Positions 18,203-21,293 of a stretch of 64,000 nt of DNA are shown here, piece after piece. The stretch covers positions 124,001-188,000 of the forward strand of contig JAHLJZ010000012.1 in NCBI GenBank assembly GCA_025602915.1, read 5' to 3'. Position 1 is the first letter of the stretch. Every line of letters begins with the position of its first letter. Source of the DNA: Paraphysoderma sedebokerense (Eukaryota > Blastocladiomycota > Physodermatomycetes > Physodermatales > Physodermataceae). The notes below the pieces were generated by a model. That model made no database searches. It was given only the letters and a program-made list of their open reading frames with translations, and was not told where the DNA came from. The position numbers were made by a program, and so were the translations under genes.

Positions 18203-21200
18203 ATGGCCACTGCTGCAATCAAAGAGTTGGTCAAAAAGGCCATCGCCGAGAATGGGGTCATGGTAAAGTGGATGCTTAGACTGTTAGTTTGCCCGACTTG
18301 TTCTAATATCAATTCTCTCCTCATTCAAAATGCTTAGATATTTTCAAAAACTACATGCCCATATTGTCGCAAGGCAAAGTCATTCTTCGATTCAATGCGA
18401 GTTGCTTATAATGCAATGGAATTGGACCAACGTCCGGACGGGAAGGAAATTCAAAACCATTTATTCGAATTAACTCAACAGGTTCGTTTTTTCTCAGTTA
18501 GTTTTTATCTATTACTGAATGTATTTCAGAAATACCGATATTCTCGTATTACCATCTTGCATTTTAGTCTGGTTTTGAATCTTAACGATAACGTTGCCAT
18601 TTCAATACATTAGAAAACTGTACCTAATATCTTCATCCACGGAACTCACGTTGGTGGGTCTAGCGATCTCACTGAACTCAAAGAATCTGGAGAGATTTAC
18701 AAATTACTGTCGAAAGGTACTTCAGAGTCAAAATTGTGATTAAGCTAGCTATGAATAAAGTTTATTTAAATTCACCATATTGATCATTCTCTTTTGAACA
18801 TTCATTCGTCGATCATACCTTTAAATCCGTTACATTTGGGTGCCAGAGCAATCCCACTCGTTCGACTATGACATGATTGTTATCGGTGGCGGATCTGGTG
18901 GATTGGCGTGTAGTAGAGAAGGTAGCCTACCTTTTGACCGTTATTTTTCTTCGCTCGAGTTCTCTACGGTCTTCTCAATCATCTCGCCAGTTTTCCAGCG
19001 CTAACTGAAGCCTTGCTTGATTTCCTGCAGCTGCGCAATTCGGCAAGAAGGTGGCAGTTCTCGACTATGTAAAGCCTTCTCCCATCGGAACAAAATGGGG
19101 TCTTGGTGGGACCTGTGTCAATGTTGGGTGTATTCCAAAAAAACTGATGCACTCGGCAGGGTTAGTTGGTGAACACATCAAAGATGCCAACGAATATGGC
19201 TGGCAAATTCCTTCGTCTGATGCCAATGGAGACTCGGATCCAATGGAGGCGGCCATGGCTATGCCAATGTCTGTCTCAGTTGGTGCTGCTTCTTTCGATC
19301 AACCCGCCCCTGTTCACAAGAAGAATCCATTCAAACATGACTGGTCTACCTTAATTAACAACGTTCAAGCTCACATTGGAAGCTTGAACTGGGGTTATCG
19401 TGTCGCTTTGAGAGATGAACGGTAAACTTATGTTTGAGTTGGCGATTCGCCTTATATTTCGGTCATTAATTCTTCCGAATAGCGTCGAATACATCAACGC
19501 AATGGGATCCCTCGTGGATCAACATTCCGTCAAAGTTTCGTTCTTTGATCGTCGCACAAACGAATTGAAAGAAGAAAAGGTGATGACGGCTGATAAAATT
19601 GTCATTGCGGTCGGCGGAAGGTGAAATTCAGTTCTCCCCTATCGATTTCATTGATTCTAGACTCATTCGCAAAATTATTAGACCAAAGTACCTGGGTATC
19701 GAAAACGACAAAGAACTTTGCGTTACCTCAGATGATCTCTTTAGTTTGGAGAAGCCACCTGGCAAAACTTTAATAGTTGGTGCTTCTTGTAAGCTGACGG
19801 ATGTTTATGTCGCCCATTTTTCTTTCACATCTTAACGGGTTTCTTGCTTTGTACATATACTACACTCCCCCCGATCAATTAGACATCGCTCTTGAATGTT
19901 CAGGCTTTCTTGCCCACTTTGGCTACGACACAACTGTTATGGCCCGTTCTATTTTTTTGAGAGGATATGATCAGGAAATGGCATCCAAAGCAGTATCCTA
20001 TATGGAGAACCACGGCGTTAAATTCGTCAAAGGTGCCGTACCGATTGCCCTTGAGAAAATGGAAGATGGTAAAATTAAAGTAGAATGGAAATACAGCGCA
20101 GATAATCGCGTTGAGACCGTATGTTACCACCTTCACCTCTGTTAGCGTCCGCAGAATCCCAAGAACCAACAGTTTTACTGTAGAATACTTTCGATACTGT
20201 CATGCTCGCCATTGGTAGAGACCCTATTACAGGTCCCTTGAATCTTGACGCTGTTGGTGTAAATTACGATAGAAAATCTGGCAAAATTGTATGACTGCAG
20301 TCATGTTTTTATAACCTCCCCAACATCATTACTTATCTTTTACCTTCTCAGCCCGTTAACGCTGATGATTCAACCAACATTCCGAACATTTATGCAGTCG
20401 GTGATGTTGTTCAAGACCGTCTTGAACTCACCCCAGTGGCTATTCAAACCGGTAAACTCCTCGCACGTCGATTATTTGCTGGGTCTGCAGAATTACTCGG
20501 TTTGTTTAATTCTCTTCTTTTACTACATGCAATGCTAAACTGTCGCTTATGTAACATATTGTTTTGAATGGTAACAGATCACAAAATGGTCCCTGTCACT
20601 GTTTATACTCCTTTAGAATATGGCACCATTGGTTATTCTGAAGAAGATGCCATTGTACGTAAAGCTCAGTGTATTTAGTGATTGCCGCCAGCTCGTAGTC
20701 GACTTATTAATTAGCGCTATCTCATTTGAACTTTCCACATGTTATAGGCTAAATGGGGTAGTGATAATATTGAAGTTTACCATGGTTATTTTAAACCTCT
20801 TGAGTGGACTGTCCCTCATCGGTTTGTCAATTTCTTCCATTTGTGCTCAGCATTGACGATTCACTCACTCAATTCATCCTCGCACGACGTTAGAGAAGAC
20901 AATGCGTGTATGTGTAAACTTGTTTGTCTTAAGACCGAGAAAGAAAGAGTAGTCGGGCTCCATTATGTTGGACCGAATGCCGGTGAGGTAACTCAGGGTT
21001 ATGCCGTTGGAATGAGGTAATACCAACCATCTTGCTCTCGTCGTAATGTATAATTAATCAATCATATATTTACATCACTCGATAGACTTGGCGCAACCAA
21101 GCATGATTTTGAATCAACAATTGCAATTCACCCAACTACTTCTGAAGAAATTATTAAATTAAAAATTTCTAAAAGCAGCGGCAAGGACGCCACTGTTTCG

Positions 21201-21293
21201 GGATGCTGAGGTAAAAATTTCAAAGGCTTGACTTATTATTGCGCACAACGTTTGCTTACTTGTCATCCGTGTCTTTGCCTATCTTTAGGTTAA
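18203..21293 (+). CDS. thioredoxin-glutathione reductase (glutaredoxin-TrxR fusion), selenocysteine-containing
   Basis: Fifteen exons read in one frame to 636 residues: 18203-18262, 18338-18481, 18614-18716, 18847-18921, 19031-19421, 19483-19620, 19682-19788, 19883-20118, 20184-20288, 20352-20499, 20578-20654, 20748-20821, 20894-21016, 21086-21210 and 21289-21293. Residues ~1-105 are a dithiol glutaredoxin: CPYC at 27-30, the [14 protein letters not shown] glutathione site. From ~110 the protein is a high-Mr (animal-type) thioredoxin reductase: FAD motif [16 protein letters not shown], redox disulfide [18 protein letters not shown] domain with [23 protein letters not shown] motif, and the HPTTSEE dimer-interface His-Glu. 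It ends Gly-Cys-UGA-Gly-stop. TGRs pass electrons from NADPH to thioredoxin and, via the fused glutaredoxin, to glutathione systems; the C-terminal Cys-Sec pair is the final carrier. TGR fusions are known in animals; most fungi use the unrelated small reductase and a separate glutathione reductase. An ordinary gene caller would stop at the UGA and lose the last exon. Confidence 0.92.
21207..21209 (+). other. selenocysteine UGA codon
   Basis: The in-frame TGA follows GGA TGC. The exon ends one base later (TGA G) at a GTAAAA donor. The next acceptor (TTTAG, 21284-21288) supplies GT TAA, so the spliced message reads Gly-Cys-UGA-Gly-stop. This is exactly the GCUG C-terminus of animal Sec-type thioredoxin reductases. 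TGA serves as a normal stop elsewhere in the window (for example at 13814-13816 and 13998-13996), so general reassignment of TGA does not explain it. Confidence 0.9.

Follow-up and report, generated by a model that had tools for sequence, protein, structure and literature searches.

A predicted selenocysteine-containing thioredoxin-glutathione reductase in the blastocladiomycete fungus Paraphysoderma sedebokerense

Results

Architecture of the TGR Gene and Its Product

The window analyzed here is a 64-kb stretch of one contig of the Paraphysoderma sedebokerense assembly. Positions 18203–21293 of its forward strand hold a gene whose 15 exons join into a single 1911-nt frame. We built this model by hand from the three reading frames, linking exons at GT..AG boundaries, which places the exons at 18203–18262, 18338–18481, 18614–18716, 18847–18921, 19031–19421, 19483–19620, 19682–19788, 19883–20118, 20184–20288, 20352–20499, 20578–20654, 20748–20821, 20894–21016, 21086–21210, and 21289–21293. 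All 14 introns have GT..AG ends and lengths of 61–132 nt. The stop codon UAA (21291–21293) is preceded by 636 codons, the 635th of which is UGA. Residues 1–634 are 100% identical to an NCBI protein annotated as “thioredoxin reductase 3-like protein [Paraphysoderma sedebokerense]” (P0001), and since that protein was predicted independently, the identity supports exons 1–14 up to the UGA. The hand-built model and this identity agree on the coordinates, strand, exon number, and motifs given in an earlier sequence-only reading of the same DNA.

The N-terminal part of the product, encoded by 18203–18716 (+), is a glutaredoxin (Grx) domain fused in frame to the remainder. It scores above the cut-offs of both PF00462 (63.1 bits, residues 19–81) and TIGR02180 GRX_euk (97.1 bits, cut-off 87.25), and it carries the dithiol active site CPYC (Cys27/Cys30). 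The following module, encoded by 18847–21210 (+), is a high-Mr thioredoxin reductase (TrxR; PF07992, 185.6 bits; PF02852, 97.6 bits) comprising FAD and NADPH domains, a CxxxxC redox center of sequence CVNVGC, and an interface domain with the motif HPTTSEE. The Pfam families Glutaredoxin, Pyr_redox_2, and Pyr_redox_dim are thus all matched, in that order, and the protein scores 697.1 bits against the NCBIfam model for thioredoxin-glutathione reductase (TGR; TIGR01438, cut-off 475.85). Its top PDB matches are named thioredoxin-disulfide reductase or thioredoxin glutathione reductase, and by analogy with this family the fungal enzyme would be expected to reduce both thioredoxin and glutathione.

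A proteasome subunit gene lies directly upstream of the TGR gene (17207–17928, + strand; PF00227, 142.9 bits). About 7 kb from the TGR gene, the minus strand encodes a GH16 domain (28733–29086, 42.7 bits), probably the putative CRH gene noted earlier.

The C-Terminal UGA and the Last Intron

The in-frame UGA (21207–21209, +) occupies the conserved Sec site, and we predict that it encodes Sec635 of a Gly-Cys-Sec-Gly terminus, the standard terminus of Sec-containing thioredoxin reductases. This assignment includes a predicted last intron of 78 nt (21211–21288, +; GTAAAA..TAG), whose removal would give a spliced end of Gly-Cys-UGA-Gly-stop. Given that splice, the DNA encodes the Gly-Cys-(Sec/Cys)-Gly ending of TGRs. 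When the downstream sequence was modeled by 20,000 Markov samples, 2.9% of them contained an acceptor yielding exactly Gly-stop.

The UGA could instead be a plain stop, leaving a Sec-free enzyme that ends in Gly-Cys and is either glutaredoxin/glutathione reductase-like or has a crippled C terminus. The NCBI annotation favors this view, as P0001 ends ...VSGC, immediately before the UGA. However, Gly-Cys is the annotated end of 119 of the 120 homologs listed (the best 120 of 7,424, P0001 included), many of them from animals, with a protein of Sorochytrium as the one exception. Animal members of this family are known to carry Sec after Gly-Cys, and gene predictors are known to stop wrongly at Sec codons; so uniform an ending is what would be expected if the predictors had stopped at UGA.

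A SECIS-type Hairpin Downstream of the Stop Codon

The plain-stop view also sits poorly with a correctly placed SECIS-type hairpin, which begins 158 nt past the TGR stop codon. The Rfam model RF00031 (SECIS_1) matches 21442–21502 (+); its score of 26.1 bits (E 0.012, 901 bases searched) falls short of the gathering score, 35. The core, at 21451–21490, has the features of a 3′ UTR SECIS (UGA/GA core, helix II, and loop AA): AUGAU on the quartet side, a fully paired helix II of 11 bp, an apical loop that opens with UAAA, and UGAU on the 3′ side. A possible poly(A) signal, matching AATAAA/ATTAAA, follows at 21613–21618 (+); further matches lie at 21408, upstream of the hairpin, and at 21827.

A strict SECIS descriptor finds the TGR hairpin as its single match on both strands of the window, against a chance rate of 0.53 matches per 64-kb strand (mean of 30 dinucleotide shuffles, one strand), and finds none in 14 other loci (154,358 bases over the two strands). 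We note that the descriptor was composed after the TGR hairpin had been seen, so its match there is not an independent test; a match beside the selenophosphate synthetase gene, described below, comes closer to one. Folding around the element is not unusually stable (z −0.94; 31 of 200 shuffles at least as stable), and the Rfam SECIS_1 model gives no match at E ≤ 10 when run over the whole genome.

Sec Synthesis and Insertion Machinery

A search of the assembly for Sec-synthesis genes, which the sequence-only reading had proposed as a check, recovers them all together with the insertion factors: tRNA-Sec, SepSecS, SPS2 with a UGA, a PSTK-like gene, eEFSec, and an SBP2-like gene. PSTK, SPS2, and SBP2 are assigned by motif or by matches below curated cut-offs, those for SPS2 and PSTK coming from single exons or partial models. 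The tRNA-Sec scores 72.5 bits (cut-off 47), is the best match of its clan, and has UCA in the anticodon loop. For this model only the cut-off is counted, because all 14 control genomes match at E 0.001 and 5 of the 14 pass the cut-off. SepSecS is found at three places, with a hand-joined protein scoring 397.2 bits, and the PSTK-like gene has TIGR03575 as its best NCBIfam match (67.7 bits, cut-off 382.35).

The elongation factor eEFSec is present with both of its eukaryote-specific domains (PF21208, 112.6 bits; PF21131, 81.2 bits), and the best 120 of 2,927 eEFSec matches include no annotated P. sedebokerense eEFSec. The lone fungal name noticed among these 120 is a predicted eEFSec (P0177, 54% identical to that of P. 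sedebokerense) of Jimgerdemannia flammicorona, presumably a member of Mucoromycota and a species outside the Sec-using fungi named in the cited passages.

The SBP2-like gene lies on the same contig as the TGR gene, C12, outside the window (contig positions ~339159–341697; locus L061, 1660–4198), and corresponds to an 860-residue NCBI protein (P0241). Its best PDB match, for a fragment comprising the L7Ae core and the preceding segment, is human SBP2 (7zjw, E 5.2e-9); for the whole protein, human SBP2 ranks next after a designed ankyrin protein. Ankyrin repeats (Ank_2, 80.2 bits) are attached to the SBP2-like part, and a single open frame runs through both the repeats and the L7Ae end. Among 528 candidates, the 175 residues scored from the SBP2-like part of P0241 match only P0241 itself at E ≤ 0.001. 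Within the window, a separate L7Ae-family gene on the minus strand (41396–41765) appears SNU13-like by eye.

Selenophosphate Synthetase Also Has an In-Frame UGA

Selenophosphate synthetase is present in two copies, on contigs C94 (48000–57000, locus L023) and C4 (1–8000, locus L025), with exon matches of 25.2–40 bits against a whole-protein cut-off of 125. Both copies contain the UGA motif GGGTGAGGATGTAAA. In the C94 copy the translation around the UGA reads ...LTNYSDLKG-U-GCK, and in the C4 copy the motif was seen as DNA only; LKG-U-GCK is a site that we take to be the SPS2 Sec site. The C94 copy has one match to the strict SECIS descriptor (L023, position 5229), 356 nt past the stop codon that ends at 4873. 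The 3′ arm of the C4 hairpin differs at several bases, yet pairing with the 5′ arm, which is unchanged, keeps the helix intact; the hairpin fails the descriptor because UUGA replaces [AG]UGA. Rfam gives no SECIS match in the C94 3′ region, where a sub-threshold snoRNA model matches the opposite strand. The copies share ∼4.6 kb, in one stretch of 3,829 nt (99.3% identity) and another of 775 nt (98.2%). The similarity stops just past the SECIS-like hairpin, and the copies may be alleles or recent duplicates.

Three other families were considered as further selenoproteins and rejected: Rdx, with CTGC at its single locus; GPx, with VASKCG in two of three places (L065 and L066; the third is L067); and MsrA, with GCFWG in L068, L070, and L071. 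The loci examined have Cys instead, which leaves TGR and SPS2 as the two selenoprotein families found.

A plain stop in the TGR gene is hard to reconcile with a genome that has Sec machinery and in which another gene, too, carries a UGA in frame at its Sec site. Considering the SPS2 UGA, the machinery, and the SECIS hairpin together, we reject the plain-stop alternative as very improbable; the UGA of the TGR gene very probably encodes Sec.

The TGR Groups with Fungal Homologs

We built a tree of the family from 37 of the 120 proteins listed, rooted at its midpoint without an outgroup and including a metagenome protein (P0007) pre-labeled “fungi.” The Paraphysoderma TGR falls with fungi and apart from animals. 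It pairs with that of Sorochytrium, another member of Blastocladiomycota (support 100/99), and a branch with support 100/99 sets these two, Gonapodya, Hyaloraphidium, and the metagenome protein apart from the rest of the tree, the animals included. Three eukprot rows diverge before the animal rows. This grouping fits vertical descent and argues against transfer or contamination.

Contamination deserves separate attention because algae and animals also use Sec. The cited passages describe P. sedebokerense as a parasite of the green alga Haematococcus, and many close homologs among the matches listed are animal proteins, so the contig or the Sec genes might derive from an animal or from the algal host. 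Against this, the TGR sits with Sorochytrium within the fungal group, away from every animal in the tree, and it shares with the SBP2-like gene a 491,823-bp contig that NCBI assigns to P. sedebokerense. The remaining Sec genes lie on eight other contigs (C2, C4, C8, C63, C72, C94, C107, and C153), and GC content is 0.402–0.434 in 11 compared loci, with 0.415 in the window. The test by tree applies to the TGR. On the tree, GC content, and contig together we reject animal or algal contamination as extremely improbable, and the TGR gene comes, as first proposed, from a fungus.

Discussion

Several lines of evidence converge on this gene: intact domains and motifs, a UGA exactly at the Sec position, a SECIS hairpin, the Sec machinery, a UGA in SPS2, and membership in a fungal clade. 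Considered together, these sequence data make us highly confident that the gene encodes a genuine Sec-containing TGR of P. sedebokerense. They are consistent with a model in which an SBP2-like protein on the 3′ UTR hairpin would recruit tRNA-Sec and eEFSec, which would in turn decode the UGA. In the assembled enzyme, electrons would pass from NADPH to FAD, on to the CVNVGC disulfide, and from there to the Cys-Sec pair at the other subunit's C terminus. This pair could then reduce thioredoxin, or pass electrons to the fused dithiol glutaredoxin domain and so to glutathione.

The sequence-only reading had proposed a Sec-type TGR in a fungus, which stands as the best reading, and had known such fusions from animals. 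As a qualification, TGR-like proteins are also predicted in Gonapodya, Hyaloraphidium, and Sorochytrium, which means that the fusion occurs outside animals as well. Under its midpoint root, the tree suggests that the Grx-TrxR fusion is older than the split between fungi and animals and probably did not arise in animals. In a broader view, which we favor with moderate confidence, Blastocladiomycota retain an ancestral opisthokont Sec system, with animal-like SECIS elements, Sec-containing SPS2, and a Sec-TGR whose glutaredoxin fusion predates the fungus/animal split, while the SECIS-binding protein of Paraphysoderma, fused to ankyrin repeats, represents a new architecture for a Sec decoding factor.

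Publications on Sec in early-branching fungi date back to 2019, which further qualifies the proposal. The cited passages report nine fungal species with Sec machinery, from Chytridiomycota, Zoopagomycota, and Mucoromycota (PMC11378755); fungal Sec users also appear in PMC10386755 and PMC7988114, seven of the nine being Harpellales and Gonapodya prolifera being among them. RNA-seq of Zancudomyces culisetae is described as showing expression of selenoprotein and machinery genes (PMC12611240). Two annotated-proteome papers of 2021 deny Sec in fungi in the passages cited. We found no report of a selenoprotein from Blastocladiomycota in the cited parts of the literature, including PMC8559351, PMC7988114, PMC8614756, and PMC10386755.

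Four elements appear to be new: Sec in Blastocladiomycota, near-consensus SECIS hairpins in fungi, the attachment of ankyrin repeats to an SBP2-like protein, and a fungal clade of TGRs. The enzyme and the trait are of known kinds, in a lineage that seems new for them. Blastocladiomycota would, it appears, join three other fungal lineages in using the 21st amino acid, and their SECIS hairpins closely resemble those of animals. Proteins annotated to end at Gly-Cys may likewise hide selenoproteins in fungi like Gonapodya and Hyaloraphidium. The TGR may also be a selenium-dependent redox enzyme of an organism that parasitizes a commercial alga, and oxidative stress is reported to favor infection of that alga (PMC9123766).

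Comparison with Known Systems

Most of the fungal selenoproteins described by Mariotti et al. in 2019 reportedly lack a consensus SECIS. Like P. sedebokerense, the early-branching fungi of that study, as far as the cited passages describe them, combine Sec machinery with UGA-containing genes. Their groups exclude Blastocladiomycota, however, and the near-consensus SECIS of P. sedebokerense is of a type that most of theirs are said to lack.

The closest fungal counterparts of the TGR, in Gonapodya, Hyaloraphidium, and Sorochytrium, are 59%, 56%, and 57% identical over 98%–99% of the query. Those of Gonapodya and Hyaloraphidium, compared here as protein records, are annotated to end in Gly-Cys. 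That of Sorochytrium milnesiophthora (P0005) has a different C terminus and a broken-looking Grx active site, perhaps through mis-annotation around a UGA or perhaps through real loss.

Outside the fungi, the flatworm TGRs (Schistosoma, Echinococcus) and vertebrate TXNRD3 have the same fusion of glutaredoxin to a high-Mr thioredoxin reductase. The top PDB match of the fungal protein is chain 22fc_A (659.5 bits); chain 2x8c_A, a thioredoxin glutathione reductase (656 bits), shares the CPYC motif and aligns to the Gly-Cys-X-Gly end. Both chains are presumably from Schistosoma. The fungal protein differs in having ∼34 extra residues (191–224) in the FAD domain, missing from the two PDB chains compared, and in lying on the fungal branch of the tree, unlike the flatworm and vertebrate enzymes.

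The redox context differs as well. Flatworms depend solely on TGR, a reliance also stated by a title cited in PMC6155587. P. sedebokerense, in contrast, has besides its TGR a glutathione reductase on contig C33 (hand-joined model; 549.1 bits against TIGR01421, cut-off 556.15, and 515.1 bits against NF004776, cut-off 480) and low-Mr thioredoxin reductase matches on C94 (exon scores reaching 104.9 bits, cut-off 343.45). Given these, the TGR of P. sedebokerense probably provides a third route, dependent on selenium, whereas in flatworms TGR is the only disulfide reductase.
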